A stretch of DNA of 64,000 bases, from positions 1-64,000 of the forward strand of contig CALKDK010000009.1 of assembly GCA_938084055.1 (NCBI GenBank). Reading direction: 5' to 3'. The position numbers were made by a program, and so were the translations under genes. The DNA comes from an uncultured Luminiphilus sp. (GTDB lineage: Bacteria > Pseudomonadota > Gammaproteobacteria > Pseudomonadales > Halieaceae). Position 1 is the stretch's first letter. The number at the start of each line of letters is the position of its first letter. The notes below the pieces were generated by a model. That model made no database searches, had not been told where the DNA came from, and was given only the letters and a program-made list of their open reading frames with translations. Below, one piece after another: positions 3,904 through 57,937 of the stretch.

Positions 3904-3963
3904 GTGTCACCTTTACCAAATTGAGGACTGACGAAACGACCAAGTCAGTCTAAGCTAGTCGCC

Positions 3964-4365: not shown

Positions 4366-4369
4366 ATCG

Positions 4370-6459: not shown

Positions 6460-6675
6460 ATCAGGGATCATTTCATCCTTGACGCGCTCAATAACATCGC
6501 GCAACCGCAGCTTCTCTTTCTTCAGCCGCTGTATCAATAATTGGTTGTGATAGGGCTGGATCTGGAGTTCCTGTATCTTTTGGTCAAGGGCGCGGTGCTT
6601 ACCCTGCAGGGTCATAAGACGCATCGCTGGCGTCATATCTTCGTTGGCGGCATCCGCGTCGTTGCCATCACCCAT
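6448..6675 (-). CDS. YdcH-like small coiled-coil protein (DUF465)
   Basis: A 75-residue protein whose body is one predicted helical hairpin: MTLQGKHRALDQKIQELQ, then QLLIQRLKKEKLRLRDVIERV, the pattern of the DUF465/YdcH family, whose function is unknown. The chosen ATG at 6675 has GGGGAG about ten bases upstream and overlaps the end of cysQ by eight bases, suggesting coupling to cysQ. An ATG further upstream at 6702 has no ribosome site. The 3' end overlaps the end of the convergent ogt gene by 12 bases. Confidence 0.8.
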   Translation of the reverse strand: MGDGNDADAANEDMTPAMRLMTLQGKHRALDQKIQELQIQPYHNQLLIQRLKKEKLRLRDVIERVKDEMIPDLNA

Positions 6676-7630
6676 TGACTGACTTCTCCCCAATCGCTTC
6701 ATCACCGGCTCTGGCCGGGGTAAACAGGTTGTGAACCCCGGACAAAAGAGGCAGCAAAGCCATCCCCGAGGGCGCAGCCGCGACAAAATAATCAACCAGT
6801 AACCCAGGGCGCATATTGTACGCCATAGGTACGTCCTCCTCAGTAAGAATCACACCCCCGATGGCCCGCACAAGGGCGTCCCCGGCAGCAACATCCCATT
6901 CATAACAGGGTGAGCTGCGCGGGTAAATATCACCACGACCGTCTACCAGTGCACAAAACTTGAGGGCGCTCCCCGCATTGACGCGTTCAACGGGCCTACC
7001 CGAGTTTGCCAAACGAGCGACCAGAGTCGCCACCCGCTTTGCGCTGTGTCGCTGACTCGCCAGCAAACGAATGACTCCCTGGCTATCCCACTCGGGTGTC
7101 AGAATAGACAACTGGCCAAAACCGTCACCCTGACATTGCCAAAGGCCTTGTCCCGGAATACCGAGATAGCACAGGCCCATCATAGGCACTGCAATGGCAC
7201 CCAGCACCGGGACATGATCGACGACTAGTGCAACGTTGACGGTGAATTCCCCGGTCCGGTCAATAAATTCCCTCGTACCATCGAGGGGGTCTACCATCCA
7301 ACACATCCGCCAAGCACGCCGATTGCTGATGTCCTCCGGCGCCGACTCCTCGGACACCAGGGGGATATGGGGTGTCAGGGACGCCAGCCCGGTGGCGAGT
7401 TGTTCATGGGCATTTTGATCCGCATCGGTGACCGGACTTTGATCAGCCTTCCGATCCACCGTAAGAGGCTGGCTCTGCTCGTAGTGACGTGTCAGGGTAT
7501 CTGATGTATCTGCAAGCAGCCGCAGCAATCCGGGGATCAAACCCTCAGGCAAACTGCCATAGGCTTTGGGCAGGATTGGCGGACTCGGCGGAGGGAAGTA
7601 AGCTTCAGTCATTGGTATCGAGGGTAACAC
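6668..7630 (-). CDS. cysQ: 3'(2'),5'-bisphosphate nucleotidase
   Basis: Hydrolyses 3'-phosphoadenosine 5'-phosphate to AMP and so recycles the by-product of sulfate assimilation. The lithium-sensitive phosphatase signatures are present: SEES at 93-96, DPLDGTREF at 114-122, and WDVAAGDAL near 254-262 (WDxAA metal site). The protein is 320 residues against about 250 for E. coli CysQ, with a proline-rich N-terminal extension and a roughly 20-residue C-terminal tail. The listed start is GTG at 7630; the ATG at 7612 is as likely and leaves room for promoters, since the divergent yrfG frame opens only four bases away. In many relatives nudE sits between cysQ and yrfG; it is absent here. Confidence 0.93.
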   Translation of the reverse strand: MLPSIPMTEAYFPPPSPPILPKAYGSLPEGLIPGLLRLLADTSDTLTRHYEQSQPLTVDRKADQSPVTDADQNAHEQLATGLASLTPHIPLVSEESAPEDISNRRAWRMCWMVDPLDGTREFIDRTGEFTVNVALVVDHVPVLGAIAVPMMGLCYLGIPGQGLWQCQGDGFGQLSILTPEWDSQGVIRLLASQRHSAKRVATLVARLANSGRPVERVNAGSALKFCALVDGRGDIYPRSSPCYEWDVAAGDALVRAIGGVILTEEDVPMAYNMRPGLLVDYFVAAAPSGMALLPLLSGVHNLFTPARAGDEAIGEKSVNG

Positions 7631-7634
7631 TGCT

Positions 7635-8339
7635 ATGGCATTAAGCGTGCACAGCGACGGATCTGTTTTGGGCGTGGATTGGTCAAAAATTCAAACGGTT
7701 CTGCTTGATATGGATGGCACGCTGCTCGATTTACGATTTGATACCGAATTCTGGACCCAAACGGTCCCCGCCCGCTACGCAGCAGAGCAAGGTATCACTT
7801 TTGACTGCGCCAGAGATCGCCTTGACCCCATCCACAAGCGAGAGAGTGGCCACCTCAACTGGTACTGCCTTGATTTTTGGTCTGAGACCGTCGGATTTGA
7901 TGTGGCTGAGCTGAAACGCCAACACTGTGCAGGCATTGCCTGGCGCCCCCAGGCGGAAAACTTCCTGCGTCGGCTGCGGGCCAGTCACTGCCGTGCAGTA
8001 CTGGTCACCAATGCACACCCCGAAACCCTGAACATCAAGCTAGAGCAGATTGGCCTGGCCGGCTGGCTGGATGAGATCCACAGCTCACATACTTTCAGCG
8101 CGCCCAAGGAGTATCAGTCCTTCTGGGAGCAACTGCAGGTGAGCTGTTCTTTCGATCCCAAACAAACACTGTTTATCGATGATTCAGAATCTGTTCTGGC
8201 TTCAGCCGAAACATACGGCGTGTCCTTCCTGGTGACCATGCGACAGCCCGACAGCAGCCAAGCAGCGCGCGGGCACACGACCTACCCCGCTGTCCTGCAC
8301 TTTGACGAACTTTTCCAGGGGCTGCCCCATGGTAACTGA
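7635..8339 (+). CDS. yrfG: HAD-family nucleotidase, GMP/IMP-specific type
   Basis: A 234-residue HAD hydrolase. Motif I is LLDMDGTLLDL with nucleophile D25 and D27, motif II is VTNAH, and motif IV is FIDDSE. The spacing and the start TVLLDMDGTLLDLRFDTEFW resemble E. coli YrfG, a purine nucleoside monophosphate phosphatase. Its place between cysQ and hslR matches the usual gammaproteobacterial order, supporting the assignment. The true start may be the GTG at 7674 (matching the length of E. coli YrfG), as the first 13 residues are not conserved-looking. Confidence 0.88.
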   Translation: MALSVHSDGSVLGVDWSKIQTVLLDMDGTLLDLRFDTEFWTQTVPARYAAEQGITFDCARDRLDPIHKRESGHLNWYCLDFWSETVGFDVAELKRQHCAGIAWRPQAENFLRRLRASHCRAVLVTNAHPETLNIKLEQIGLAGWLDEIHSSHTFSAPKEYQSFWEQLQVSCSFDPKQTLFIDDSESVLASAETYGVSFLVTMRQPDSSQAARGHTTYPAVLHFDELFQGLPHGN

Positions 8340-8748
8340 AGCCACCGAGCCGGGACGGAAAGTGCGGGTCGATAAGTGGCTTTGGGCAGCTCGCTTCTTC
8401 AAAACAAGAAGCCTCGCCAAGGCCGCCATTGAGGGAGGCAAAATTCAACTACAGGGACAGCGCGTCAAAGTCAGCAAAGAAATTGCTGTTGGTGATCGAT
8501 TGCTCATCCGCCAGGGGTGGGATGAAAAAGAGGTTATCGTTCGAGCGCTTAGCGAGCGGCGTGGCCCCGCACCGGTGGCCCGGGAGCTGTATGAAGAATC
8601 AGCCCAGAGTGCTGCGAGACGACAACATGAGGCAGAGCTGCGACGAGCCGCTGGCAGCAACACGCCCACGCATCGGCCCGATAAACATGAAAGAAAGCTA
8701 TTGAACAGACTGCGCAGGGGAGGTAGACCTTTACTGGAGGATGACTAG
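8329..8748 (+). CDS. hslR: Ribosome-associated heat shock protein Hsp15 (S4 domain)
   Basis: A 139-residue RNA-binding protein. It opens with the S4 domain pattern VRVDKWLWAARFFKTRSLA and GGKIQLQGQRVK, and ends in a basic, helical tail, as in E. coli Hsp15, which binds 50S subunits carrying a nascent chain and recycles them after heat stress. The ATG at 8329 has a CCAGGGG ribosome site and overlaps yrfG by 11 bases. A longer frame starts at 8302, but that extra part is not S4-like. The stop overlaps by four bases with the convergent diguanylate cyclase. Confidence 0.92.
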   Translation: MVTEATEPGRKVRVDKWLWAARFFKTRSLAKAAIEGGKIQLQGQRVKVSKEIAVGDRLLIRQGWDEKEVIVRALSERRGPAPVARELYEESAQSAARRQHEAELRRAAGSNTPTHRPDKHERKLLNRLRRGGRPLLEDD

Positions 8749-9956
8749 GCCCTGAAGGCTGACAGGGTCACCCCATTTCGGCCACCTTCCTTGCTGGCAT
8801 ACAGCGCTTGATCCGCGGCCTCAAGCAATTGCTTGAATTCAGTGCTCATTGACGGAATGCTCGCCACCACTCCCTGGGATACCGTGACGACGTTCGCCAC
8901 ACCGGATGCCGAGTGCTCAATTTGCAGGTCAGTAATACGCGCCCGTATTTTTTCTGCGGACGCCATCGCCTCAGCCTGACTGGTACCGGGTAAAAGCAGG
9001 AGAAACTCTTCTCCCCCCATGCGAATCGCAAGTTCCCCCGCGCGCGAAGTCACCGATCGCAGGACACCTGCAATCTGCTTGAGCACGTCGTCGCCGGCGG
9101 GATGACCGTAGGTGTCGTTGTAGGCCTTGAAATAATCAACGTCGATCATAATGACGCCCAGCGAAGTACCGGCTCGCTGGGCCCGGCTAACCTCCAGCTC
9201 AAAGGCCTTATCAGCACCCCGACGGTTTCTCAGCCCGGTCAGCTCATCAAGCTTCGCCAGGTCTGCCAACTGTTTGCGCGCCTCCTGCAACTGCAGGTTT
9301 TTTGCCCTCAGCGTATCCGATACCCCCGACAGGTCCTTCGCCATTGCCTCCCGCTCCAGCCCCGACTCCACCATTTGGGAAAAAGACCGGCTGATACCCT
9401 CAGTCAGCAAAGCCATCAGCATGGCAAGCCCGGTCAATATCATCGCGAATGTCAGGTTGAATGGGCGCACATCATGCTGCCAGCCCAGATAGGAAGCCAC
9501 GGGAATGAGCGTCGCGCAGATCCAGATCAGGTAGAATTCCCGCACCACCGCAGTGGCAGCCACAGTGGTAACGGTCATGATGACCATGACCATAATCAAC
9601 GCGTAGAGGACATCATCAGATAGCTGTTGCCCCATCCAGATAACCGTTGCCGCCCAGGCCAAACCACCAACGAGCGAAGAGAGCATGATTTCCCTGAGCA
9701 CTCCTCCGGGATTCTGAATGTGTCTCTGTTTTTCCAGCGCATAGCCCATGTGGATGGACTGGAGAAAAGATAGCAGCAGCATGCCAATACCCCATGCGGG
9801 AATTGGCAGCGGGGAGTACTGGAACCAAAGCAAAAACATGGCACTGAGGACGCCCAGCGTCTGGGCCCCTGCCATCACATACCGGGCGTTCTGCAGCTGG
9901 AATGCCAATTTCGCCGATAGGGCATCGCCGCGGGAAATTTTTCTTTGGTATAGCAT
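8745..9956 (-). CDS. Membrane diguanylate cyclase (GGDEF domain)
   Basis: A 403-residue protein. Residues about 18-185 hold six or so hydrophobic segments forming an integral membrane sensor of MASE-like appearance. A short coiled segment (LRAKNLQLQEARKQLADLA) leads to a GGDEF domain starting LDELTGLRNRRGADKAF. The active-site motif is GGEEF, which is catalytically competent in this family, so it should make cyclic di-GMP from GTP. The inhibitory I-site RxxD five residues before is RAGE here, so product feedback may be weakened. No EAL domain. It is a single-gene unit. Confidence 0.92.
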   Translation of the reverse strand: MLYQRKISRGDALSAKLAFQLQNARYVMAGAQTLGVLSAMFLLWFQYSPLPIPAWGIGMLLLSFLQSIHMGYALEKQRHIQNPGGVLREIMLSSLVGGLAWAATVIWMGQQLSDDVLYALIMVMVIMTVTTVAATAVVREFYLIWICATLIPVASYLGWQHDVRPFNLTFAMILTGLAMLMALLTEGISRSFSQMVESGLEREAMAKDLSGVSDTLRAKNLQLQEARKQLADLAKLDELTGLRNRRGADKAFELEVSRAQRAGTSLGVIMIDVDYFKAYNDTYGHPAGDDVLKQIAGVLRSVTSRAGELAIRMGGEEFLLLLPGTSQAEAMASAEKIRARITDLQIEHSASGVANVVTVSQGVVASIPSMSTEFKQLLEAADQALYASKEGGRNGVTLSAFRA

Positions 9957-10072
9957 GTTAAAACTGTAGCGCAGGTCTGGGCAGGATTGTAAAAAAAATG
10001 GCAGAATTGCGGCCTGAGTAGTAGCTTTTTAGCCTTCCTAGAGGCAGAGGAAGCAGAAAAGCAGGGGTTGCA

Positions 10073-10795
10073 ATGAATAAACACAAAGATACCCAGAGCG
10101 AATCTCGCCGCATCATCTGGCTCCTGATGCCCGTTTTACTCGTGCCCCTCGTCGCAACCGGCGTCAGCATATCACTCGATTTTGGGTCCCCGCTGGATAC
10201 CTCCTGTGAATCCATCAGGACATTCCTCGAGGAAACCGATCAGATCAGGGTTACCAAGGATGCCAACGTCCTGATCCTTGGTGGTGCAACCTTCACACAG
10301 TGGAAGTTCAGGTCTGCTCGGGACAAAATGACGCCCCAGCAACTCCGCGTGAAGGCCTCTCCCCTTATCGGGCCTCACACCGTTGCCCGCTGTTTCGAGC
10401 GCACAGTAGCTCACTACCAACCAATGACCACAGTGCTTTTCCTGGACCCCGAGGATGGTTTAGCAGGGGCCGAGGCCACTCTGAACGCCCTTGACGAGAT
10501 AGTACAGAAGCGAACCTACTGGAGCGTGTCCCCGGGCTTGGTGGTGGTGCCGCCCACCGTCACGCCATCCCTCCAGGGTAAGGCTGTGCAGCTTGCGGAC
10601 TTTGAAACCCGGGTGCAGAACTGGGCCGCAGATAAAGTGGGCGTGGAAACATTCGATACCGCTATCTTGCTTTCTGATGCATCCGGACGGGTCGACCCCC
10701 GGCTGTTCTGGCCAGACGGCTCGACCCTTGGCAAAGAGGGGTGTGATCGACTGAGGGCCAGAATGCTTATGTATGCAGGCCTCAGCGATTCGTAA
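10073..10795 (+). CDS. Membrane-anchored protein with degenerate SGNH-like features
   Basis: A 240-residue protein with one N-terminal membrane segment (IIWLLMPVLLVPLVATGVSI), so the body is probably periplasmic. I do not recognise a clear family. The layout beta-strand VLILGGATFTQW near 60 and LFWPDGSTLGKEGCDRL near the C-terminus resembles blocks I and V of SGNH/GDSL esterases, but the catalytic serine of GDS is replaced in GGAT and the His of DxxHL is replaced in DGSTL. If related, it is probably not catalytic. It lies just upstream of dxs with 33 bases between, but a metabolic link is not evident. Confidence 0.55.
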   Translation: MNKHKDTQSESRRIIWLLMPVLLVPLVATGVSISLDFGSPLDTSCESIRTFLEETDQIRVTKDANVLILGGATFTQWKFRSARDKMTPQQLRVKASPLIGPHTVARCFERTVAHYQPMTTVLFLDPEDGLAGAEATLNALDEIVQKRTYWSVSPGLVVVPPTVTPSLQGKAVQLADFETRVQNWAADKVGVETFDTAILLSDASGRVDPRLFWPDGSTLGKEGCDRLRARMLMYAGLSDS

Positions 10796-10828
10796 CGTCC
10801 CGCCCATCAGATAAGGTATTATCAGCCC

Positions 10829-12733
10829 ATGACGGTGCAATTCCCCACGGTACAACCTGACACACCGGTGCTGGATCAGGTCCAGGCGGATCTGGCGTGC
10901 CTGCGTGCGCTGTCGGAACAAGACCTGCTGACACTGGCGACTGAGGTCCGGGATTTCATGCTCTACAGTGTCAGCAAAACCGGGGGACATTTTGGTGCCG
11001 GGCTGGGCGTTGTGGAATTGTCGATCGCCCTGCATCACGTACTCAACACGCCCGAAGATCGCATTGTCTGGGACGTGGGCCACCAGACCTACCCGCATAA
11101 AATACTGACCGGTCGGATGGACAGGCTGGCCACTATTCGACAGGCCGGGGGGCTATCGGGCTTTCCCAAGCGCACCGAGAGCCCCTTTGATACCTTCGGC
11201 GTTGGCCACAGCTCAACCAGTATTTCTGCGGCGATGGGAATGGCGGTGGCCGCCGGACGCCAGGGTGTCGATCGTAAGGTCGTCGCAGTGATTGGTGATG
11301 GCGCAATCACTGGAGGAATGGCCTTTGAGGCACTCGCCCATGCCGGCCACGTCCGGCCTAACATGCTGGTCATTCTCAATGACAACCAAATGTCGATTGG
11401 CCACAACACGGGCGGTCTTGCGACCTACTTTGCCAAAATCTGGGCCAGCCCGACCTATATCGCCCTGCGAGAGGGCTCCAAGCGCATCCTCGAGCATGTA
11501 CGTACAGCCTGGGACCTAGCCAAAAAGACCGAGGAGCAGATGAAGAGTCTTGTTGCCCCCGGTATGTTGTTTGAGGAGCTCGGGTTCAACTACGTGGGAC
11601 CCCTGGACGGTCACGACCTGCCACAGCTGGTACAAACCCTCGAGGCGATGGTAGATCTGAAAGGGCCGCAGCTGCTGCACATTCGCACGGTCAAGGGCAA
11701 AGGATTCAGCCCAGCGGAAAGCGACCCGGTGGGCTATCACGCGATCAATAAGATTGAAGCGGCACCCGCAGCCACCGAGGTCAAAAAAGCATCTCCCCCC
11801 AAGTACCAGGATGTTTTTGGCGCGTGGCTGTGCGACATGGCAGCCGAGGACGAACGCCTGGTGGGAATCACCCCTGCCATGTGTGAGGGTTCGGGTATGG
11901 TTCGCTTCTCCCGGGAGTATCCGGAGCGTTACCATGACGTGGCTATAGCTGAACAGCATGCCGTCACGCTCGCTGCGGGAATGGCGTGCGATGGGGTAAA
12001 GCCGGTTGTGGCCATATACTCAACATTCCTGCAGCGGGCCTACGACCAGCTCATTCACGATGTCGCACTGCAGAACCTGGACGTCACCTTCGCCATTGAT
12101 CGCGGTGGGCTGGTTGGACAGGACGGTGCGACCCACCACGGGGTTTTCGATCTAAGCTATCTACGCTGTGTCCCCAATATGGTGGTGGCCTGTCCCTCCG
12201 ACGAAAATGAGTGCCGCCAATTGCTGTACTCCGCATACCAGCACACCGGACCGGCGGCGGTGCGCTATCCGCGTGGCGCCGGTACGGGGGTAGTGGTTGA
12301 GACCACAATGACTGCTATGCCGATCGGCAAGGCGGTTACCCTGAGGACCGGAAAACATATCGCCATACTGAACTTTGGTGTTTTGCTGGAAGAGGCTGCG
12401 GCAGCAGCCGAAACGCTCGATGCGACTCTGGTGGATATGCGCTGGGTCAAGCCGCTCGACGAGGCACTGCTGATGAAAATGGCGGCTAGCCACGAGCGCT
12501 TTATCACCGTAGAGGAAAACATGCTGGCCGGCGGAGCTGGCAGTGCCGTTGCCGAATTTCTGTCCCGTGCCGGGGCTAGGCTGGAAATCCACCACGTTGC
12601 CATTCCAGATACCTTTATCCACCATGGCAGCCAAAAGGAAAACCGCGAAGCGGCGGGGCTCACAAGGGCGGCAATCGTTGACGCCGGGGGCCGACCTGAT
12701 GCGGTAGATGCGGTGGTAAGCAGTATTATTTAG
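10829..12733 (+). CDS. dxs: 1-deoxy-D-xylulose-5-phosphate synthase
   Basis: Condenses pyruvate and glyceraldehyde 3-phosphate to DXP, the entry step of the MEP isoprenoid pathway and also a source of thiamine and pyridoxal precursors. The 634-residue length matches the family. Visible motifs include the thiamine diphosphate site [14 protein letters not shown] with LNDNQMSI, the SHxxK-like [11 protein letters not shown] region with catalytic histidines ([18 protein letters not shown]), and [12 protein letters not shown] in the pyrimidine domain. It is followed at once by xseB and ispA, so DXP synthesis and prenyl chain assembly are in one operon. Confidence 0.97.
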
Positions 12734-12786
12734 ACCAATACTTGACGACGCCGGACAACAAACCGGACGGTAACCAGGAGACTGCT

Positions 12787-13020
12787 TTGCCCAAGAAGCA
12801 AGAGGACAGCGCGACACACCCACCGCTCAAAGAGCAGATGGAGGCGCTGGCACACATCGTTGAGAAGCTTGAAGATCCTGACGTTGACCTGGAAGAGTCC
12901 CTGGCGCTGTATGAGCAGGGCATGGCATTGGTTGCCACGGCAGGTAAAGTACTGGAAGCGGCTGAACAACGGGTCGCCATGGTAACCGGTGACGGTGAGG
13001 TGCAGGCGATCGACCCATGA
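12787..13020 (+). CDS. xseB: Exodeoxyribonuclease VII small subunit
   Basis: A 77-residue partner of XseA in the ATP-independent single-strand exonuclease VII. The family pattern is clear: LKEQMEALAHIVEKLEDPD then DLEESLALYEQGMAL and a helical C-terminus. I chose the TTG at 12787 because AGGAG lies six bases upstream and it gives the usual length near 80 residues; the frame is open from another TTG at 12742 with no ribosome site. It overlaps ispA by four bases. xseB-ispA-dxs clustering is common in gammaproteobacteria; here dxs is first. Confidence 0.93.
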   Translation: MPKKQEDSATHPPLKEQMEALAHIVEKLEDPDVDLEESLALYEQGMALVATAGKVLEAAEQRVAMVTGDGEVQAIDP

Positions 13021-13859
13021 CGCCGGCAGATTTGCAGGCTGCGATGCTGGCGTGTACCGACTCACGCCTTAACGCCGCCCTTCAATATGTCCTTAAAACG
13101 CCGGGCAAGCAGTTACGAGCCCGCCTTGTTGATGCCAGCTTTCAGATGTTCAGCCAGCGCCCCTGCGAAGCGGTGGTATCGGTGGCAACGGCTATTGAGT
13201 GGCTTCATACCTATTCCCTGGTTCATGACGATTTACCCGCTATGGACAACGATCCCCTGCGTCGGGGAAAACCTACCGTCCACACGGTCTACGATGATGC
13301 GACGGCCATCCTGGTTGGCGATGGCCTTCAGGCGGCGGCCTTTGGTCTCATCAGTCGGGAATGCGGGCTATCGGCCGAGATACGCATCAAATTGCTGGCG
13401 GTCGTTACCGAGGCAGTGGGGTTTGCTGGCATGGTGGGTGGGCAGGCGCTCGATATGGCTGCAGAGGGCGCGTCGCTCACCATTGAGGAACTGGGGCAAA
13501 TCCACCGCCAGAAAACCGGCGCACTGATCAGGGCCGCCATACTGTCAGGGGCCCTTTGCGCCGACGCAGATGCTACCGATATCGCCCACCTCGATCGTTT
13601 TGCCGGCGCCATAGGTCTGGCGTTTCAGGTGGCCGATGACATTCTTGACGTGACACAGAGCAGTTCAACGCTGGGGAAAACGGCGGGTAAGGATCTGGCC
13701 GTAGAGAAGTGCACCTATGTGCGACATCTGGGCCTGGAGGGCGCGCAAGCCGAAGCAGAAAGATTATTGGCTGAAGCCCTGGACTCACTCAGCCGCTACG
13801 GCGACAGGGCGGCGGCACTGGCTGATCTGGCTGTTGCCATGGTACGCCGAGAAACCTGA
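13017..13859 (+). CDS. ispA: Farnesyl diphosphate synthase (geranyltranstransferase)
   Basis: Adds isopentenyl diphosphate to dimethylallyl and geranyl diphosphate to make C15 farnesyl diphosphate for quinones and undecaprenyl phosphate. The first aspartate-rich motif DDLPAMD is at 71-77 and the second, DDILD, near 206-210, both intact; LRRGKPTVH and GGQALDM are also typical. The usual GGKRLRP near the N-terminus reads PGKQLRA, keeping the Lys and the last Arg. Length 280 is slightly under the E. coli enzyme (299). It overlaps xseB by four bases and ends one base from the convergent pgpA. Confidence 0.95.
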   Translation: MTPADLQAAMLACTDSRLNAALQYVLKTPGKQLRARLVDASFQMFSQRPCEAVVSVATAIEWLHTYSLVHDDLPAMDNDPLRRGKPTVHTVYDDATAILVGDGLQAAAFGLISRECGLSAEIRIKLLAVVTEAVGFAGMVGGQALDMAAEGASLTIEELGQIHRQKTGALIRAAILSGALCADADATDIAHLDRFAGAIGLAFQVADDILDVTQSSSTLGKTAGKDLAVEKCTYVRHLGLEGAQAEAERLLAEALDSLSRYGDRAAALADLAVAMVRRET

Positions 13860-48266: not shown

Positions 48267-48647
48267 ATGAAAAAAATCGTTGCGGCCGCCATTGCCGCGT
48301 TTTCGCTGGCCGCTGTACAGGCCCTGGCCGGCAGCCCTGTTCAGGTCTGGAAGTGTCAGATCAATGACGAAATGGGCGAGGAAGAGCTAGTCAAATACTC
48401 GGGCCAATGGGCCGAGGCTGCCAGCAAGGTACCCGGCGGCGAAAGCATGAGCAACCAGGTTTACTTCCCGGTTGCGGTAGGGGCAGACGGCAACGGCACG
48501 GACCTGCTATTCATCTCCTCCTGGCCCAATTTCGAGGATTATGGGAAATTCTGGGACGCCTATCCAGACTCGGACGCGGCAGCCATGGAAGGTGGGGCCA
48601 TGTCCTGTCACGGCAGCCAACTCTGGGAAGATATGTCCATCAAGTGA
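48267..48647 (+). CDS. Small secreted protein, single-domain relative of the 61.7-kb lipoprotein
   Basis: A 126-residue protein with a clean signal peptide (MKKIVAAAIAAFSLAAVQALA) and two further cysteines (WKCQIN and MSCHGS) that could form a disulfide. The body pattern, VWKC then LLFISSWPNFEDYGKFW and a final SQLWEDMSI, resembles each half of the lipoprotein encoded at 61670-62449, so I regard them as sharing a domain, perhaps of the dimeric alpha/beta barrel type. No function is known to me. A GAGAGGGG ribosome site precedes the ATG, and a strong terminator follows. Confidence 0.8.
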   Translation: MKKIVAAAIAAFSLAAVQALAGSPVQVWKCQINDEMGEEELVKYSGQWAEAASKVPGGESMSNQVYFPVAVGADGNGTDLLFISSWPNFEDYGKFWDAYPDSDAAAMEGGAMSCHGSQLWEDMSIK

Positions 48648-48756: not shown

Positions 48757-49824
48757 ATGGGCGTGTCTATGGTATGGAGTTGTAACGAGTGGGATCCGCT
48801 TGAGGAAGTCGTGGTCGGCACCGCCCTGGGGGCCAGATTTCCCCATGCTGACCCGAGTACCCGACTGGCGGAGTACCCTGGTCGGTCGCTCAATGACATT
48901 CCCCAGGGACCTTTCCCGGCCGACCTCATCGAAGAGGCCGAGGAGGACCTCGAGACGTTCGTGGCGGTGCTGGAGCGAGCAGGTGTTTCGGTCCGCAGGC
49001 CGTCGCTCTGGGAGCACGACCGGGTTTTCAGCACCGTACACTGGTCCACCCCGGGCTACTATAACTACTGCCCTCGGGATATCTTGCTCACCGTTGGGGA
49101 CCAGATCATTGAAACACCCAACGTGATCCGCGGTCGCAGCCAGGAAACCTTCAGTTATCGAGAGCTGCTGCTCGAGTACATGGCGTCAGGGGCACGCTGG
49201 TACAGCGCCCCACGCCCGATGCTACGCGATGCGCTTTTTGATGCAGACCCCCAAAAACCCACGCCGCGGAACATCGAGCCCGCATTTGACGCAGCGAACA
49301 TACTGCGTTTTGGCAGGGACCTACTGTATCTGGTGAGCGCGACGGGCAACGAGATGGGAGGCCACTGGCTGCAGTCTATTCTCGGCGATAGCTACCGGGT
49401 CCACTTTATGCAGGATGTCTACTTTGGTAGCCATATTGACTCCACACTGGTCGCCCTGCGCCCAGGACTTGTACTTGCCAATCCAGAGCGCCTGAACGAC
49501 GCCAGCTTGCCGGAATTTCTGAAAGAGTGGGAGGTGATTTACAGCCCGCCAATGGAGAACCAGGCACGACACTCTGCGGATTACCTGGAGCGCGCCATCG
49601 GCAGCGAATGGATCGATATGAATCTGTTCAGTATCGATCCGGAAACCGTTGTGGTGGATAGTGACCAGAGCCAGCTGATCCGGCTTCTGGAGAGCAAGGG
49701 ACTCAATGTCGTGCCAATCAAGCTTCGCCATTCACGAATGCTCGGTGGCGGATTCCACTGCGTAACCCTAGACGTACGGCGCCGGGGAACCCTTGAAGGC
49801 TACTTCAAGGGATCGCCGCACTAG
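48757..49824 (+). CDS. Amidinotransferase (arginine:amine type)
   Basis: A 355-residue enzyme of the glycine/inosamine amidinotransferase family, which moves the amidino group of arginine to an amine to make a guanidino compound. The catalytic triad is visible: Asp in FDAANILRFGRDLLY, His in GSHIDSTLVALRPG and nucleophile Cys335 in GGGFHCVTLD. AGGAG sits just before the start; ATG at 48757 (spacing three), GTG at 48763 and ATG at 48769 are all possible. It is the first gene of a plus-strand set with the NRPS (12 bases downstream) and PPTase. The acceptor may be diaminopropionate or its polymer, which is inference. Confidence 0.87.
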   Translation: MGVSMVWSCNEWDPLEEVVVGTALGARFPHADPSTRLAEYPGRSLNDIPQGPFPADLIEEAEEDLETFVAVLERAGVSVRRPSLWEHDRVFSTVHWSTPGYYNYCPRDILLTVGDQIIETPNVIRGRSQETFSYRELLLEYMASGARWYSAPRPMLRDALFDADPQKPTPRNIEPAFDAANILRFGRDLLYLVSATGNEMGGHWLQSILGDSYRVHFMQDVYFGSHIDSTLVALRPGLVLANPERLNDASLPEFLKEWEVIYSPPMENQARHSADYLERAIGSEWIDMNLFSIDPETVVVDSDQSQLIRLLESKGLNVVPIKLRHSRMLGGGFHCVTLDVRRRGTLEGYFKGSPH

Positions 49825-49836
49825 CGAATCGGTCAT

Positions 49837-52800
49837 ATGCTCTGGCTGACCATGGTCACGCTGTGTGTACTGGGTCTGACAACCCTGGCCTGGTGGCGCT
49901 ACTGCCACGTCCTGACAACTTCAACAGCGAACCTGCCAACAGACCCACTCAGCCTGAAGAGCCCGCCCGGTAGAGACCCATGGATCCGCGCGCAGCACCA
50001 AAAGGGCGTGACCTGGTTGCACGAAATTTTTGAACGCAGTGCTGCACGCTACCCGGGCCACACCGCCCTGCAAGTCCCGACTTCCGGGGAGGTGCTGACC
50101 TACCGGGAGCTCAACACGCGGGCAGAGCAGCTGGCAGCTGAGATTTCCCGCCACCTCACCGGACCCGATCAGGTCGTGGCGGTATCACTGGAGCAAAACC
50201 AGGCGGAAATCGTTGCGGTTCACCTCGCCATCCTGAAGGCCGGCGCAACACAGCTTTTTCTCGATCCCGCCGCACCCCCGGGCATGCACCAGCATATGTT
50301 GCAAGACGCCGATCCCGTCCTGATCATTCACGATGAAGGCACCCAGGTACCGGCCAACCTGACGGCGCTCAATGTCCGGAACGTCGCCGCCACGGCTTCC
50401 CTGTCGAGGACGCCACCCGTCTGGCTGGATGAGCCCCAGGAGCGCCTCGCGGCCCTGTTTTACACCAGCGGCACAACAGGGCGACCTAAGGGGGTGGAGT
50501 GCGCCCACGCGGGCTACACCAATCTGGCACGCAGCTACGCCAGCTACTTCGATTTCACAGCCGGCGCAGATGCAACCTCCCTCACCTCATCGCTGGGCTA
50601 TGACGGTAGTATCTCCGAGTTATACAGCGCCTGGGTGTTCGGCGCTGCCGTAGTTTTGCTGACCAAGGAAGAGGTGCGCTCGGGTCCCGACCTCCTGCCC
50701 ATCCTGCGCAGGGAAGAGGTCACCGCGCTTTTTTGTCCACCGGTGCTGTTAAGCACGCTGTCAGACCAGCCGGAAGAAGATCTGCCCTATCCTATCTGCC
50801 GGTACGTTATACCGGCAGGCGAGGCCTTCCCGGCCAATCTCGTGGAGCCCTGGTCAAGGGCACGCCGACAGATCGTCAACACATACGGCCCGACCGAAGC
50901 CAGTACCGACACCAGCCGCCAACTGCTGGTACCGGGCAAGCCCGTCACTATCGGTACGCCATTTCCCGGGGTCGAGTACGTCATCCTGCAACCCGAAACC
51001 CTCACCGCCCTCGCCAGAGGGGCCGCGGGTGAGCTGTGTATCGGCGGGTGTCATCTGGCGCGAGGCTACCGAAACCAGCCACAGTCCACTGCGGATCGAT
51101 TTGTGGAACACCCTGAGTATGGACGACTTTACCGCACAGGAGATCGTTGCCGAATCAACCCAGTGTCCGGGCAGGTGGAGTTTGAGGGTCGCCTTGACGC
51201 ACAGTTGAAAGTGCGGGGTCATCGTGTTGAGGCGCAGGGCATTGAATCGTTTCTGCAGGACTCAATCGAAGACATCGAATCCGCTGTTCTCGCTTATCGA
51301 AACGACGAACTGGTGGCATTTGTGCTTGCCCCCGAGCGCGGGGCATTCGTACCAGGGGACGCGCCTGTCAAAATGGCGCCTGTAGATTGGGTGCAGCCCA
51401 TACAGTTCCAGCTCAGGCAACAGTTCCCGGAACACGCGGTGCCCTCCCGCCTGTTTCTGGTCCCTGAATTCCCCCTGAAGCCCCTGTCGGGCAAAATCGA
51501 TCGGGACAACTTGCCCGAACTCCCAACAGCCCATACCCCACCGGTCAATGTGCAACCACCGGGAGCAGAAGCCGCCCATCCAACTACAGGCGAACACCCC
51601 CACGTACTGCCCATCTGCCAGAGCATCTTGGGCGAGGGACTGAACTGGGACGATGACTTTGTCGAATGGGGAGCCCATTCCATAGCCATGGCAAAGCTGA
51701 CTCAGGCGCTCAGGGGTGCGGGGTACAAAGTCTCCGTACGTGACCTGCTGACTGATTTCAGAACACCACGACGAGTCACCTTGCTGCCCATGGCCCCGCC
51801 CGCCCCCAGCCAAAAAAATGCCGGCGCGGGCGCACCTGGGAGACACCCGGCAGCGGTAACTGATGCCCATCTGCCCACCTTGGAACCCCGGGTGTTTGCG
51901 CTACTGCAGGCTCTCGCAGTCCTGCTGCTCCACCTGCCAACCCTGTTGATAATCATTGTCCTGATCGCACTGGGCGATCCCCAGGACGCCTATATCACTG
52001 GCGATGTGGCCACCATCCTCGGCCTTACCTTCGTTGCCTATCTCGCTTACCTGAGTACCCCCTTTTTAAACCTGGCCTGGGTATTGATCCTGAGAACCCT
52101 GGGGGATTCAGGAAGCTTGAGCTGTGGAACCTATTGCCAATGGAGCCGCCAACACCTGCAGGCCTGGTGGCAGGACCGACAGCAGCGGTCGGTACTGCAG
52201 CCCATGAACACGTGGCTGCGAGCGCCAGGGATTTACTCATGGCTGCTGCGCATGCTGGGCGCTGACGTTGGTCGCGGCACCCATATCTCCCAGAGTGCAG
52301 AATTTCTCGGGCCGCTGTCGCAGGTGAAGCTTGATGACCATGTAGTCGTGCAAAGCGGCGTCCAGATTAGTAGTCAGCATTGGCGAGATGGCCAATTCAC
52401 CATCGCCACAGTGTCGGTGGGCCCCAGAAGCAAATTGGGACAACGGTCATTCCTGGGCCCGGGTTCCACGATGGGCGCAGACTGCTGGCTAACGCCCCTC
52501 AGCTCCATGAAGCAAGGTAGCGAAGTCGACGACGGTCGAATGATCGACGGCGTGCATTGCGACCCTGTGGGCAGACATACAGCCTTGCAGCGACTCCGCG
52601 GAAAGCAGCCTTTGTCCACCGGACGCCTCTGGCTTGAAATCCGAAGCATTGCCCTTCAGTTCCTGATCGAAAGCCTGCTTTTTGTCCTGCCAGCGGCATT
52701 AATTTTCAGTGGAATTTCACAGCTACTGATGCCGGAACACAACGCCACCCCGGTGCAGGCCGCCTTCGTCACCATCAAGGACCAGGTGGCTGATTTTTTC

Positions 52801-54048
52801 ATCAGCGCTGTTGTCGCAGCATGGCTGACACTGCTGACCACATCCCTTCTAACCTGTACTTTTGTGAGACTTACGGCTTTCGGTCCCGGTCTGCTCTGGG
52901 GCCCCAGCCTCCGGGGCACCTTGCTGCGCTTTCGCCAGGAAAAAATGAATCAGATCCAGAGGATCTGGACCTGGACTCTAACGGGCCAGTATTTAAGGCG
53001 ACTGGCTGGCGTCAGCTATGGCAAGACCGGAGCCAGTGAGTGCGATGCCATGCTCAACCTGGTCCCGGAGATGGTCGGGACAGCCCCCAATATTTTCATG
53101 GCAAACAGTTGCCGTGCGAATGTTTTGGATGACGAAGGCGAGTGGATCTACCTCCGACCACTCCAACTCGGTGACAACTGTTTCCTCGGCAATAACAGCG
53201 TGGCGGAATCCGGTGATTTACCCGACAACCTTTTGCTTGGGGTCAGCACGCCGATCGGTGATCATCGCGTCCGAAGATCCGCCGCTAATACCACCCAAAC
53301 ACCTCTCGTGCTGGCGGGGAGCCCACCGCTGGAGTTTGCAGCTCCCGAGGGGCAAACCCCGGGTGACGAGAAGCCCTCATGGCTGCTGTTTATTATCCGA
53401 GTGCTGGTGGGTGACCTGCTCGGCATTGCCCTGGTACCGGCCATGCCTGTATTTGTGCTCGGGATGCTGCTTCTGATTATGCAGGGCTTTAACATTCCCC
53501 CAATGCTATCCGCTGTGCTGGCAGTTACCCTCTCGGCCTTCGTCCTGCAGCTGTTGGCCTTAGTCGTCAAGTTATGCCTGGTACAGGGACGTTGGGGAGA
53601 AGACCACCAGACGCCTTTCTGGTCAGTGCGGCACTTTACCTATTTTCTGGCACAGGACTGTTTTTTCAGATGGGCCGGACCGGTACTCAGGCAGCTGGGT
53701 GGGACAACGCTGGCCAGCTCACTGCTCAGGTCATTTGGCTGTCGAATCGGCCGGGGCAGTATCCTGCAGGAACCCCTTCAAGCCTTTGACTGGCACGCGG
53801 TAGACATCGGCGACCATTGCATGATTCAGGGTCAGATGCAGCTGCACAGCTTTGAACATCGCCTGCTCACCGTACGTCGTACGCAGATCGAATCCCACAG
53901 CACCGTAAATTTTGGTGCGACCATTATGGGGGGAGCCTCCCTCGCGCGACATACGACCGTGGACGGGCTGGGGTTGGTGATGAAAGGCATGGTGTTGTCG
54001 CCAGGCCTGCACGCCGGCAGCCCGGTTAATCTGGAGCAGCCACTGTGA
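49837..54048 (+). CDS. Pls-like single-module NRPS: adenylation, carrier and membrane terminal domain
   Basis: A 1403-residue synthetase. Residues 5-25 form an N-terminal membrane anchor. The adenylation domain (about 60-560) has YTSGTTGRPKG, NTYGPTEAS, YRTGDRC and PLSGKIDR with the catalytic Lys. A carrier domain follows with phosphopantetheine Ser615 in WGAHSIAM. There is no condensation or thioesterase domain. The rest has six hydrophobic segments (about 686-712, 724-755, 937-965, 986-1015, 1182-1218, 1225-1250) that bracket three hexapeptide-like beta-helix modules (812-900, 1060-1150, 1300-1400). This is the layout of epsilon-poly-lysine synthetase Pls, whose tail polymerises amino acids iteratively. 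The pocket residues I read by eye are D, G, S, F, I, A, T, T, D, with an acidic last residue. Diaminopropionate is the likely monomer given sbnA/sbnB. Confidence 0.88.
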   Translation: MLWLTMVTLCVLGLTTLAWWRYCHVLTTSTANLPTDPLSLKSPPGRDPWIRAQHQKGVTWLHEIFERSAARYPGHTALQVPTSGEVLTYRELNTRAEQLAAEISRHLTGPDQVVAVSLEQNQAEIVAVHLAILKAGATQLFLDPAAPPGMHQHMLQDADPVLIIHDEGTQVPANLTALNVRNVAATASLSRTPPVWLDEPQERLAALFYTSGTTGRPKGVECAHAGYTNLARSYASYFDFTAGADATSLTSSLGYDGSISELYSAWVFGAAVVLLTKEEVRSGPDLLPILRREEVTALFCPPVLLSTLSDQPEEDLPYPICRYVIPAGEAFPANLVEPWSRARRQIVNTYGPTEASTDTSRQLLVPGKPVTIGTPFPGVEYVILQPETLTALARGAAGELCIGGCHLARGYRNQPQSTADRFVEHPEYGRLYRTGDRCRINPVSGQVEFEGRLDAQLKVRGHRVEAQGIESFLQDSIEDIESAVLAYRNDELVAFVLAPERGAFVPGDAPVKMAPVDWVQPIQFQLRQQFPEHAVPSRLFLVPEFPLKPLSGKIDRDNLPELPTAHTPPVNVQPPGAEAAHPTTGEHPHVLPICQSILGEGLNWDDDFVEWGAHSIAMAKLTQALRGAGYKVSVRDLLTDFRTPRRVTLLPMAPPAPSQKNAGAGAPGRHPAAVTDAHLPTLEPRVFALLQALAVLLLHLPTLLIIIVLIALGDPQDAYITGDVATILGLTFVAYLAYLSTPFLNLAWVLILRTLGDSGSLSCGTYCQWSRQHLQAWWQDRQQRSVLQPMNTWLRAPGIYSWLLRMLGADVGRGTHISQSAEFLGPLSQVKLDDHVVVQSGVQISSQHWRDGQFTIATVSVGPRSKLGQRSFLGPGSTMGADCWLTPLSSMKQGSEVDDGRMIDGVHCDPVGRHTALQRLRGKQPLSTGRLWLEIRSIALQFLIESLLFVLPAALIFSGISQLLMPEHNATPVQAAFVTIKDQVADFFISAVVAAWLTLLTTSLLTCTFVRLTAFGPGLLWGPSLRGTLLRFRQEKMNQIQRIWTWTLTGQYLRRLAGVSYGKTGASECDAMLNLVPEMVGTAPNIFMANSCRANVLDDEGEWIYLRPLQLGDNCFLGNNSVAESGDLPDNLLLGVSTPIGDHRVRRSAANTTQTPLVLAGSPPLEFAAPEGQTPGDEKPSWLLFIIRVLVGDLLGIALVPAMPVFVLGMLLLIMQGFNIPPMLSAVLAVTLSAFVLQLLALVVKLCLVQGRWGEDHQTPFWSVRHFTYFLAQDCFFRWAGPVLRQLGGTTLASSLLRSFGCRIGRGSILQEPLQAFDWHAVDIGDHCMIQGQMQLHSFEHRLLTVRRTQIESHSTVNFGATIMGGASLARHTTVDGLGLVMKGMVLSPGLHAGSPVNLEQPL

Positions 54049-54932
54049 GCAAAATGAGCCAGCTAATTCACCGTGAATTCCAGAGCGATTGCCGTGCCCA
54101 GTGTTTTCAGGCCGGGGGCACGCACATCATGGTCTACGCCTGGCTCTACCGGGATGACCCTGAATTTACCTCGGCCTGCGAGGTCTCATTAGACGCTGCT
54201 GAACACTACCGCGCCAGCCGCCTTCAGGCACCGGGATCCCGACCCGCCTTCGTACAGCGCCGAGCATTCCTGCGGTGGCTGCACCGGGATCAGTCGTGGG
54301 ACGCGTCGGAGCCGCCGGGCCCAGGGGCGCAGCCGAGAGAGAATCCTCAGGCCCTGAGTGTCACCTCCACTGCCGCCATGGCCCTCGCGGCCGTCGGCCC
54401 GGTTTGCGCGCTTGGAATTGATGCCGAGCCAGCCGACCATGACACTGACATACACGCCCTGGCCGGGGGACTGTTCGCGCAGAGCGAATGTCTCGACCTG
54501 GGCAAGGCCGCTGCGGGTGACGCCCACAGACTGTTTTACAGGCTGTGGCGCCTCAAAGAAGCCGGGCTAAAATACCGGGGCCAGGGTCTTGCCAAGGACC
54601 TCAACGGCGCTGTTTTTACGGTGCTTGCCGATGGTGGTCTCGGCGTGGCGCGTCGACCGACTCCCGGCGTGACAATGCGTGGGGCCATACCCGGGTTTTT
54701 TGAATGCCAATTTAGCGGCGTTGACCTGGCGCTGACCGTGCCAGCAAAACCGGGAGGCGCAGGTCTGTGGCGAGTCGCCAAAGCCATTCCAGTGGACCCA
54801 TACGAAAGTAACGCAGCCAACAATGTGCGAAAGCCATTTGCACAGGGAAAATCACCAGCGCCAGGACCGATACCGCCACGGGACCCAGCTCGTAGGCCCA
54901 GCCCAGTCCGTAACCATAGAACAGCGTGGTAA
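54045..54932 (+). CDS. 4'-phosphopantetheinyl transferase (Sfp type)
   Basis: Transfers the phosphopantetheine arm from coenzyme A to a carrier protein serine, here most likely Ser615 of the adjacent NRPS. The Sfp-type motifs are LGIDAEP (Mg-binding) near 124-130 and FYRLWRLKEAGLKY near 164-177. The frame is 295 residues, but family members end around residue 240; the last 50 or so residues, proline and arginine rich, lie antisense to the 3' end of the DUF418 gene and are unlikely to be structured. It overlaps the NRPS stop by four bases. The 221-base overlap with a convergent gene is unusual. Confidence 0.86.
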   Translation: MSKMSQLIHREFQSDCRAQCFQAGGTHIMVYAWLYRDDPEFTSACEVSLDAAEHYRASRLQAPGSRPAFVQRRAFLRWLHRDQSWDASEPPGPGAQPRENPQALSVTSTAAMALAAVGPVCALGIDAEPADHDTDIHALAGGLFAQSECLDLGKAAAGDAHRLFYRLWRLKEAGLKYRGQGLAKDLNGAVFTVLADGGLGVARRPTPGVTMRGAIPGFFECQFSGVDLALTVPAKPGGAGLWRVAKAIPVDPYESNAANNVRKPFAQGKSPAPGPIPPRDPARRPSPVRNHRTAW

Positions 54933-55923
54933 AAATTAACGTTTGGCAGAGGTACGTCGTCAGACTCATCCGGCCCACGGCCTCGAACATGACAACGGGC
55001 AGGCTCGCCCTGTACCGCACGGCCACACCCAGCGCCAGGCAAAACCAGGCTGCCGTTAGGGTCAGGGTACCCGCCAAAAACACCAGATCGCCGGTTAGCT
55101 GGCGCGCCGGGCTGGACAGGGCGGTGCCATAAACCTGAAAACCCCAGTGTGCGGCAAGGGCTCGCTCTAACCCCATCCAACAAAGACCACACGCGCCGAC
55201 GGCCGCGCCCCAGCGTAACGTCCGGGCCGGATCCCGGGCGATGCGATCGAGCAAACCATTGCGCCCGATGCAATAACCCACCAAAAACAACCCAAGGACT
55301 GCCCAGCCGGAATCGGGCCATTGGTAATCCTGCCAGGGAAGCTCGGGCAGGTAATCTGCGTGTTCAGCAACAATGTCCCCAAGCGAACCGGTGCTGTAAA
55401 GTCCGGATTCCCGGTCCTCCAACAACCATTCCCCTGCCTCGGCGCGATCGCCGGCAAAGTCACTGCCGCCACGATCGGGCTGGTACCAGTGCGCCAGGGG
55501 AAAAATCAGTAATAAAAGGAGAGCCAGGGGTAGCAGAAGTCGACTGGGCAAATAATGCAACAGCAGCAGCAGTATTCCCAACTCTGCATAGAGCATTAGG
55601 ATGTCGCCTTCAAACAGGAGCGCGTTGGTCAGCCCAAACGCCATCAGCGCCGTGAAACGACGCAGCATTTGCCAAACCCGCGTTGCCTGCTGGTTTTGAA
55701 GCCAAAATGAGATGCCAAACAGCAGGCTGAACAGCCCCCAGAATTTTGACTCGAAAAGCACGTGTTTGATCTGCCAGAAAACTCGATCAGCCGCGCTGTC
55801 CCAGGCCAGGGAGTCAGCGCCAAACCCGTACAGATTGACAAGTAATACGCCAAACAGGGCAAAGCCGCGCAGCGCATCGATTTCCCGATAGCGTCTGCGA
55901 CCAGTCAAAGCAGGACGTCCCAC
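54712..55923 (-). CDS. DUF418 family membrane protein (YeiB-like)
   Basis: A 403-residue polytopic protein with about ten hydrophobic helices. It opens with REIDALRGFALFGVLLVNL, the family start, contains LFGISFWLQNQ and GRMSLTTYLCQTLI, and ends near GPLEWLWR, the family's C-terminal signature, followed by about 20 extra residues. DUF418 proteins are related to membrane acyltransferases; substrates are unknown. It is the third gene after sbnA and sbnB, overlapping sbnB by 19 bases. It could acylate or export the product, which is a guess from context. Confidence 0.87.
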   Translation of the reverse strand: MGRPALTGRRRYREIDALRGFALFGVLLVNLYGFGADSLAWDSAADRVFWQIKHVLFESKFWGLFSLLFGISFWLQNQQATRVWQMLRRFTALMAFGLTNALLFEGDILMLYAELGILLLLLHYLPSRLLLPLALLLLLIFPLAHWYQPDRGGSDFAGDRAEAGEWLLEDRESGLYSTGSLGDIVAEHADYLPELPWQDYQWPDSGWAVLGLFLVGYCIGRNGLLDRIARDPARTLRWGAAVGACGLCWMGLERALAAHWGFQVYGTALSSPARQLTGDLVFLAGTLTLTAAWFCLALGVAVRYRASLPVVMFEAVGRMSLTTYLCQTLIFTTLFYGYGLGWAYELGPVAVSVLALVIFPVQMAFAHCWLRYFRMGPLEWLWRLATDLRLPVLLARSAPGQRR

Positions 55924-56930
55924 TCCCTGTCAACAAGCTCAATATCGGTGCCCAGCCCCTGTTCCAGGGCGCGGTCATACACCGTCTTGGCCACCGCAAG
56001 GTCCTCGATCGCCAGCCCAAAGGGATTGAAGAAAATGCGCTCGTCTTCATTCTCCCGTCCCGCTTTCTGGCCGGTAATGATCTCGCCGAACTCGGCATGT
56101 ATGGATCCGCGATCTACTAAGCCCGCCCGATGCATCCGGGCCAACACACGATCAGAATGCACGCACTGCTCCCAGTCATCCACGACAATCTTGTCCGCGA
56201 GGGCCACCGTCTCAAAAAGGGGGTCCATAAGTGAAATATTGAGGAACAGCGACCCGGCCTTGAAGCAGCTCGGTGTTGCCCAGGGGTCGTAGGCGGTTGT
56301 CGCCGTCAGGGCAATATCAGCATCACCCAGGGCGGCCTGAAAATGTCCCACGGGTAGCGCTGGAATTCCCAATGCCTCCAGATGCCGGCAGCAGGCAGCT
56401 GCCCGGTCGGGGCACAGATCGAAGACCCGAACCTGTTCAAGGCCGGGGAACCACTGATAAATGGCCCACACGGACAGTGCGCCAATTCTGCCACCGCCAA
56501 CCAACCCCAGAACGCGTGCGTCGGGTCGGGCGAGATAGCGTGCCGCAAGCGCCTGGACAACCGCTGTGCGCATGGCACTGATCAATCCCCCCTCCATAAT
56601 CGCCAGAGGCAGCCGGGTATCGGGGTCATTGAGGACGATGACCGCATTGGCCCGGGGCAAGCCACGCTCTGGGTTTTGCGCGGCACTGGCCACCCACTTG
56701 AGACCCTCTATATCGAAGGCGCCGCCGAGGTGACCGGCAAGCCCAATGATTCTATCGGCCACATGGGGGCATTCCGGGCGCTTGAGAAAACTACTTGGGG
56801 GCGCCGTGAACTGACCTGCAGCATGGGCCACAAAGCAAGCCTCGAGCGCCGCGCCGACGACGTCGATGTCTGACGCACCGCAGCTCTGCACATCAGCCTG
56901 TGTGAGCAGCCGTGTCGGGGTTGGGCTCAA
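55905..56930 (-). CDS. sbnB: SbnB-type N-(2-amino-2-carboxyethyl)-L-glutamate dehydrogenase
   Basis: A 341-residue member of the ornithine cyclodeaminase/mu-crystallin family. In staphyloferrin B synthesis SbnB oxidises the SbnA product ACEGA with NAD+ to give L-2,3-diaminopropionate and 2-oxoglutarate. Family signatures seen are FLKRPECPHVADRIIGLAG, the substrate loop MEGGLISAMRTAVVQALAAR and a Rossmann site LGLVGGGRIGALSVWA near 160-175; VVDDWEQCVHSD and FGEI are typical of SbnB. Adjacency to SbnA makes the assignment strong. It overlaps sbnA by four bases. Confidence 0.9.
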   Translation of the reverse strand: MSPTPTRLLTQADVQSCGASDIDVVGAALEACFVAHAAGQFTAPPSSFLKRPECPHVADRIIGLAGHLGGAFDIEGLKWVASAAQNPERGLPRANAVIVLNDPDTRLPLAIMEGGLISAMRTAVVQALAARYLARPDARVLGLVGGGRIGALSVWAIYQWFPGLEQVRVFDLCPDRAAACCRHLEALGIPALPVGHFQAALGDADIALTATTAYDPWATPSCFKAGSLFLNISLMDPLFETVALADKIVVDDWEQCVHSDRVLARMHRAGLVDRGSIHAEFGEIITGQKAGRENEDERIFFNPFGLAIEDLAVAKTVYDRALEQGLGTDIELVDREWDVLL

Positions 56931-57937
56931 ATTTCCTCATCCACATTAAAAATCTCGGGTACGTTGATACCCCGGGCAGCGAGCCAGTCTGGATCAAACT
57001 GGGTTTCTGTATACCGGCTACCGTGATCAGGCAACAAGGCGACAAGATTATCCTCGGGTCCGTAGTGTTGCGCAGCCAGATTACGCATCACGTGCACCGC
57101 GGCGCCGCCGGAACCACCGACCAGGATGCCCTCTGCTCTGGCCAACGCAATGGCGGCCCTGATGCTCTCTTCCGCCTGCACATAGACAATGTGGTCGACA
57201 AATTCGTCAAATTCAGCTGATGCGTAGTTGGCCGGGGCAATGCTGGTACCCATACCATTGAGGTGGCGCGGCGCCGCGCCCGCGTTGCCCGGCAGCGCCA
57301 GGGAACCCTTCTCGTCTACCAACCATATATCGGTGCCGGGCGATTGAGATTTTAAGAAACGGGCCACGCCCATGGAGCTGCCCCCGGTGCCGGCCACCAT
57401 CACGACGGCACGCACCCGTCCCTCGAGGGCCTTGAGTATTTCCGGACCGGTCGAAGCGGTATGGGCCGCCACGGCGGCTGGACTGTTGTACTGGTCGAGA
57501 TAAATGGCGCCGGGATATTCCGCCAAAAGCGACTCCAGCCGGGCGAGGCGCGTGAGATGATAGCCCCCCGTTTCGTCCCGTTGATACACCTTGACGACCT
57601 CAGCGCCCAGTACGCGCAGACAGCGCTCGGTTGCGGGGTTTATTTTGGCATCGACCAGGCACATAAGCTGGTAACCCTTGACGGCACAGACCATGGCCAT
57701 CCCAACGCCCATGTTGCCAGAGGTACACACTATAATTCGTGCACCACGCTGCAGGTTGTGCTCGCGCTCCGCCCAATCGATCATGCCCCGCGCCGCGCGA
57801 TCCTTCATACTGCCGCCGGGATTCGTGCATTCGAGCTTCCCGAAAAGCGCTGGCACCACCCCGCGCCCAAACGCCCGCAGGGACACCATGGGTGTCCCTC
57901 CAATCGCGTCTAAAACCGTGGCACAAACGTCAGTCAT
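56927..57937 (-). CDS. sbnA: SbnA-type N-(2-amino-2-carboxyethyl)-L-glutamate synthase
   Basis: A 336-residue PLP enzyme of the cysteine synthase fold. SbnA condenses O-phospho-L-serine with L-glutamate to give ACEGA, the precursor of L-2,3-diaminopropionate. The PLP lysine is K45 in NPGGSMKDRAA, the phosphate-binding turn is AGTGGSSMG, and the substrate loop TSGNMG replaces the TSGNTG of cysteine synthase, a difference seen in SbnA-type proteins. No ribosome site of note precedes the start. It heads a minus-strand operon sbnA-sbnB-DUF418 that converges on the NRPS genes. Confidence 0.91.
   Translation of the reverse strand: MTDVCATVLDAIGGTPMVSLRAFGRGVVPALFGKLECTNPGGSMKDRAARGMIDWAEREHNLQRGARIIVCTSGNMGVGMAMVCAVKGYQLMCLVDAKINPATERCLRVLGAEVVKVYQRDETGGYHLTRLARLESLLAEYPGAIYLDQYNSPAAVAAHTASTGPEILKALEGRVRAVVMVAGTGGSSMGVARFLKSQSPGTDIWLVDEKGSLALPGNAGAAPRHLNGMGTSIAPANYASAEFDEFVDHIVYVQAEESIRAAIALARAEGILVGGSGGAAVHVMRNLAAQHYGPEDNLVALLPDHGSRYTETQFDPDWLAARGINVPEIFNVDEEI

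Follow-up and report, generated by a model that had tools for sequence, protein, structure and literature searches.

Patel and Gulick count six natural cationic homopolymers, and before PosA none had been reported outside Actinomycetes, according to their paper (PMC10522769). It also states that the synthetases of these polymers conserve an Asp and a Glu, at positions 1 and 3 of the adenylation pocket code, and that residue 2 tracks chain length, being Phe in the synthetase of poly-diaminopropionate (PDAP).

The window analysed here is a 64,000-nucleotide stretch from an uncultured Luminiphilus sp. (Luminiphilus/HTCC2080 group), whose genome assembly has 79 contigs and is 82.75% complete. An earlier note had proposed a convergent six-gene island at 48757–57937. 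All six genes were found intact there by an open reading frame check, and Pfam, NCBIfam and phmmer searches supported the names given to them. On the forward strand lie an amidinotransferase of the StrB1/AGAT superfamily (AT, 48757–49824), a non-ribosomal peptide synthetase of Pls architecture (NRPS, 49837–54048) and a 4′-phosphopantetheinyl transferase (PPTase, 54045–54932). Convergent to them, on the reverse strand, are a DUF418 membrane protein (54712–55923), an SbnB-type dehydrogenase (55905–56930) and an SbnA-type PLP enzyme (56927–57937), the latter two for the second and first steps, respectively, of L-2,3-diaminopropionate synthesis. Junction sequences revealed stop/start overlaps between NRPS and PPTase and likewise between SbnA and SbnB. 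Upstream of the AT, up126 (48267–48647, forward strand) encodes a small protein with an N-terminal, signal-like hydrophobic stretch (residues 3–25), and a hairpin followed by a T run was seen by eye between up126 and the AT. Since the same gene set recurred in many genomes, near and distant, it is not a chance assembly, and the locus almost certainly encodes a real, conserved and dedicated pathway. No earlier description of the cluster was found in a literature search that took in few subscription papers.

Pfam matched AMP-binding (214 bits), carrier (30.9 bits) and hexapeptide families in the NRPS, and neither a condensation nor a thioesterase domain, in agreement with the Pls-like architecture read previously. 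The adenylation (A) domain spans residues ~61–560, the carrier domain ~593–647 (Ser615) and the membrane tail ~700–1400. Within the tail, His1337 and Glu1340 are conserved. In a predicted model (pLDDT 79.5) the tail showed long helices in three pairs together with three beta-helix regions, whose folds matched left-handed beta-helix proteins, mostly acyltransferases; with the tail taken from this model, the enzyme has the Pls/PosA layout of A domain, carrier, six transmembrane helices and three tandem beta-helix domains. The tail had been expected to match TIGR02353, which was borne out in coverage (positions 36–684 of 695) but not in score, about 134–140 bits (139.8) against a cut-off of 423.1; the best E-value among 28 family members was 1.1e-54. 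In an unrooted tree the family did not fall in the canonical clade, with a split support of 0.996 on the tail and just 0.587 on A plus carrier. Judged by its sequence, this NRPS stands apart from ordinary Pls/PosA enzymes. The gene was split over two frames in one near relative (L045, genome G002) and in pieces in a distant locus (L126), possibly through decay or assembly error. A second adenylation domain was present elsewhere in the source genome (G000:C19:30718–32160, in an open frame of 1834 aa).

The NRPS tail was detected in 27 of 146 related genomes, the window's own counted. Scanning of named genomes with a profile made from 17 tails gave 63 loci, 28 near and 35 distant, the distant tails being 34 to 41% identical. 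Named strains carrying the cluster NRPS were HTCC2080, HTCC2148, Zhengella mangrovi X9-2-2 and NaphS2. Distant loci were titled Alpha-, Gamma- and Deltaproteobacteria, Acidobacteria, Thermoanaerobaculia, Verrucomicrobiota and Planctomycetaceae, and three (L093, L095 and L129), close to the family of the window, bore the titles Halioglobus or Haliea; because most distant loci are metagenome bins, these taxon labels carry some risk. As a control, 26 canonical Pls/PosA enzymes were collected: a set of 398 genomes of the phylum yielded 25 that exceeded the TIGR02353 cut-off, and one more (L155) fell below it. In the 2.6 to 9.7 kb flanks of 12 of the 26 canonical loci, no homologues of AT, SbnA, SbnB, PPTase, DUF418, TraX, up126, S41 or DUF4344 proteins were found at E 1e-4. 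Six of the 26 canonical genomes had an AT, all 39 to 43% identical.

The earlier note knew of no description of an AT combined with such an NRPS; the linkage proved real. An AT was seen in 45 of the 63 loci, every time 5′ of the NRPS and on its strand, with at least 66.7% identity to the window AT. Fourteen of the 18 loci lacking it had less than 50 bases upstream of the NRPS match. Among the related genomes the AT matched in 29 of 146 (the copies in G013 and G091 were just 37% and 35% identical) and was present in 26 of the 27 near genomes with the NRPS, as judged by comparing the lists by eye; in the exception, G023, the contig began inside the NRPS (L080). Of 23 distant loci with 1.5 kb or more of upstream sequence, 19 had the AT, the misses being L097, L109, L117 and L126. 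Thirteen distant genomes had a cut locus or no AT there: seven of these gave an AT match genome-wide (the copy in G156 being 41% identical), and six gave none, namely those of L097 and L109, with a full upstream flank, and of the cut loci L098, L100, L106 and L113. AT and NRPS are a conserved pair, new here.

The best match of the window AT was 1bwd, inosamine-phosphate amidinotransferase (StrB1; phmmer, 380 bits, 8e-113), followed by other amidinotransferases; neither Pfam nor NCBIfam gave a match at E 0.001. The seven positions of the proposed Cys/His/Asp active site were invariant in 19 of 19 aligned members. The enzyme forms its own subfamily: beyond the 45 loci, the identities seen were at most 43% save in three plasmid copies, one 63% and two near 49% identical, among the 15 plasmid relatives listed of 45. 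No AT above 43% identity besides the window's own was found in the 398 genomes of the phylum. The 63% copy lies on Robbsia andropogonis plasmid p3 (NZ_CP139167.1, L176), where the stretch 2337–13041 also holds a PGM1-related peptide ligase adjoining the AT, an SDR, an aldehyde dehydrogenase and, on the opposite strand, ectB and a phosphoribosylglycinamide-synthetase C-domain protein.

To read the adenylation pocket, its positions were located through core motifs, with a residue numbering that we take to be the usual one. The code DGSF(V/I)ATTDK occurred in 23 of 24 distinct near genes, the remaining one being split over frames and unreadable; of the 35 distant loci, 29 hold the region and all 29 had this code. 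One gene (L056/L093) was counted in both sets. The canonical enzymes, with codes such as DFEALGTVTK, DMEHNGTVSK and DLEDLGTVVK, had Glu at position 3 in 26 of 26 cases, against Ser in every readable member of this family. DGSF(V/I)ATTDK was found neither among these 26 nor among the polymer codes of the main text of PMC10522769. The diaminopropionate specificity anticipated earlier was not borne out, as the code fits no diaminopropionate, ornithine or lysine polymer code described or seen; as far as sequence can tell, it is new, invariant and not decodable to a substrate. Our guess is that a short cationic side chain could be held by Asp331, Thr322, Thr330 and Ser239, with Phe278 stacking a guanidinium.

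The SbnA/SbnB naming held up: window SbnB matched 4m54 and scored 351.1 bits against the TIGR03944 cut-off of 326.9, and window SbnA, though below the cut-off of TIGR03945 (273.2 against 349.95 bits), had this as its best NCBIfam match and S. aureus SbnA (5d87) as its best solved structure. SbnB was present in 18 of the 146 related genomes, the window's own counted, and lay on the contig of the NRPS tail in 15 of them. In the other three (G037, G042 and G043) it lay between SbnA and a partial DUF418 gene near a contig end; G037 and G042 had no NRPS tail, and in G043 the NRPS was on a separate contig. Thus, as far as contigs show, every SbnB in the related genomes sits at this locus, and the scattering of SbnB independently of the NRPS that the earlier note had allowed for was not seen. 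Conversely, 16 of the 27 near NRPS genomes had SbnB and 11 had none detectable (lists compared by eye): these 11, 65 to 97% complete (G004, 97%), gave no TIGR03944 match over the cut-off, the one match reaching 18.5 bits. Some of this absence could be missing sequence, because the contigs of G031, G025, G041 and G011 end before the expected place of SbnB; in G022, G032, G038 and G040 other genes follow DUF418. All 11 keep the same pocket code.

In the distant set SbnA–SbnB preceded the AT in 11 of 20 loci with at least 4 kb upstream. Both distant SbnB proteins scanned were over the TIGR03944 cut-off, and two of three SbnA proteins passed that of TIGR03945 (385.2 and 363.7 bits; the third had 342.3). 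Five loci with an AT (L094, L102, L112, L120 and L124) had no SbnA/SbnB in at least 4 kb upstream and no TIGR03944 match over the cut-off genome-wide, and in four of the five the few neighbours scanned included no obvious substitute gene. Two arrangements were seen, one 5′ of the AT on the same strand (distant loci) and one convergent and downstream (Luminiphilus type), the latter also in L118, Deltaproteobacteria by title. Distant pairs were 27–36% identical to the Luminiphilus type. This does not have to reflect separate recruitments, since distant SbnA proteins differ from one another (down to 28% identity) as much as they do from the Luminiphilus SbnA (30–36%). That the pair recurs in several phyla and in both arrangements nevertheless speaks for a functional link.

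The PPTase (PF01648, 41.3 bits) was present in 21 of the 29 distant loci whose downstream sequence reached 1.5 kb or more. The DUF418 protein (114 bits), given no role in the earlier note and listed by Pfam as a family of unknown function, has a membrane acetyltransferase fold in its predicted model, that of the transmembrane N-acetyltransferase HGSNAT. Among the 29 distant loci that had DUF418 or TraX (a pilin-acetylase family), or whose downstream sequence reached 2.5 kb or more, ten had DUF418 and nine TraX, 19 in all and never both. TraX lay inside the NRPS reading frame, at the C-terminal end (~1700 aa), in L099, L101, L110 and L115; these loci were titled Acidobacteria, Chloracidobacterium and Blastocatellia. 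In the window the PPTase and DUF418 genes share 221 bp at their 3′ ends (54712–54932), and overlaps were seen in near relatives also (e.g. L037 and L043). up126, an orphan family without a Pfam or NCBIfam match, was conserved 5′ of the AT in near relatives and was found in 10 of the 35 distant loci by clustering and in 14 by tblastn, at varying positions. An S41-family peptidase lay near the cluster in eight distant loci (L091, L099, L101 and L112 among them) and a putative DUF4344 metallopeptidase in five (L094, L117 and L124 among them).

We propose the following pathway. SbnA and SbnB, by family, would make L-2,3-diaminopropionate, and the AT would transfer the amidino group of arginine, the probable donor, to an acceptor amine, most likely that of diaminopropionate, giving a guanidino building block. 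The PPTase would arm the carrier domain, and the A domain with the new invariant pocket would load a short cationic amino acid. The tail, by its model a three-in-one beta-helix acyltransferase fold, would link the units through amide bonds, in the manner of poly-lysine synthetase. With its side-chain amine capped, diaminopropionate could not form the isopeptide bond that known homopolymer synthetases use, so the AT may act before or after the NRPS. DUF418, or elsewhere TraX, would, from the modelled fold of the former, acylate a product amine across the membrane, and the resulting polyamide may be short and rich in guanidine, and either secreted or located at the cell surface. A guanidinylated oligomer or polymer of diaminopropionate type, acylated at the membrane, is thus our tentative prediction, to which we give somewhat less than an even chance because the pocket code has not been deciphered and many of the genomes lack SbnB. 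The oligo- or poly-diaminopropionate with later guanidinylation put forward in the earlier note stands as one option among several; a simple diaminopropionate homopolymer is not established, because 11 of 27 near genomes keep NRPS, AT and code with no detectable SbnB, and the pocket is unlike known codes.

An unlikely reading, though one to be taken seriously, is that the monomer is one of the common cationic amino acids, arginine for example, or else a guanidino acid that the AT forms from a common amine, with SbnA/SbnB supplying an optional second unit. The constant core of AT and NRPS, together with the absence of SbnB from those 11 near genomes and several distant loci, would fit it, as would the occurrence of Asp331 in arginine codes (in the text of PMC12283262), but the placing of SbnA–SbnB directly 5′ of the AT in distant loci, and beside DUF418 in Luminiphilus, speaks against it. 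PGM1-type peptides carry an alpha-guanidino (N-amidino) unit, and such a unit, made by the AT, might cap or start a chain to which the tail joins further units. We regard this as quite improbable: the closest plasmid relative of the AT among the matches listed does adjoin a PGM1-related ligase, with ectB nearby, but no Pls-type NRPS is annotated in that Robbsia stretch, and the A domain retains Asp235, presumably the usual contact of the alpha-amine. Plain PDAP as in Streptomyces albulus PD-1, with the AT capping ends or serving another pathway, is suggested by the shared SbnA/SbnB-like pair beside a Pls-type enzyme (main text of PMC4668381), but is very doubtful given the Phe and Glu at positions 2 and 3 of the PDAP pocket (main text of PMC10522769) and the tight linkage of an AT that is nearly always present.

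On the preferred reading of a guanidinylated, acylated diaminopropionate-type product, the cluster looks built for making a positively charged, guanidine-bearing small polymer by an unusual membrane-bound peptide-making enzyme in several bacterial phyla. The broader view, that this is a hitherto undescribed class of bacterial polyguanidine natural products with its own membrane acylation, whose dedicated synthetase family, apart from poly-lysine synthetases, polymerises a guanidino amino acid from a companion AT in several phyla, is rather unlikely as it stands, if conceivable. A second family of synthetases, tied to an AT and having a pocket that is invariant and still unread, occurs in named strains and so opens the way to what may be a new class of guanidine-rich polymers, and through the pocket to a new adenylation code; DUF418 gains a testable role beside a synthetase.

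Compared with known systems, the NRPS shares with Pls, PosA and PDAP synthetase (TIGR02353) the A domain, carrier and membrane tail with three transmembrane-helix pairs and three beta-helix regions, the lack of condensation and thioesterase domains (main text of PMC10522769) and the QxHxxE motif, but differs in ~20% tail identity, a separate clade, a score below the TIGR02353 cut-off, Ser for Glu in the pocket and other partner genes. The PDAP cluster of S. albulus PD-1 resembles it in having a cysteine-synthase-like and an ornithine-cyclodeaminase-like enzyme that feed a Pls-type NRPS, but has another pocket, and the word "amidino" does not occur in the main text of PMC4668381. StrB1 is the best solved relative of the AT, with active-site residues kept, but no aminocyclitol gene was recognised in the island and the window AT belongs to a separate subfamily. 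At the membrane step, DUF418 resembles HGSNAT in its modelled fold, and TraX stands in for it in nine distant loci.
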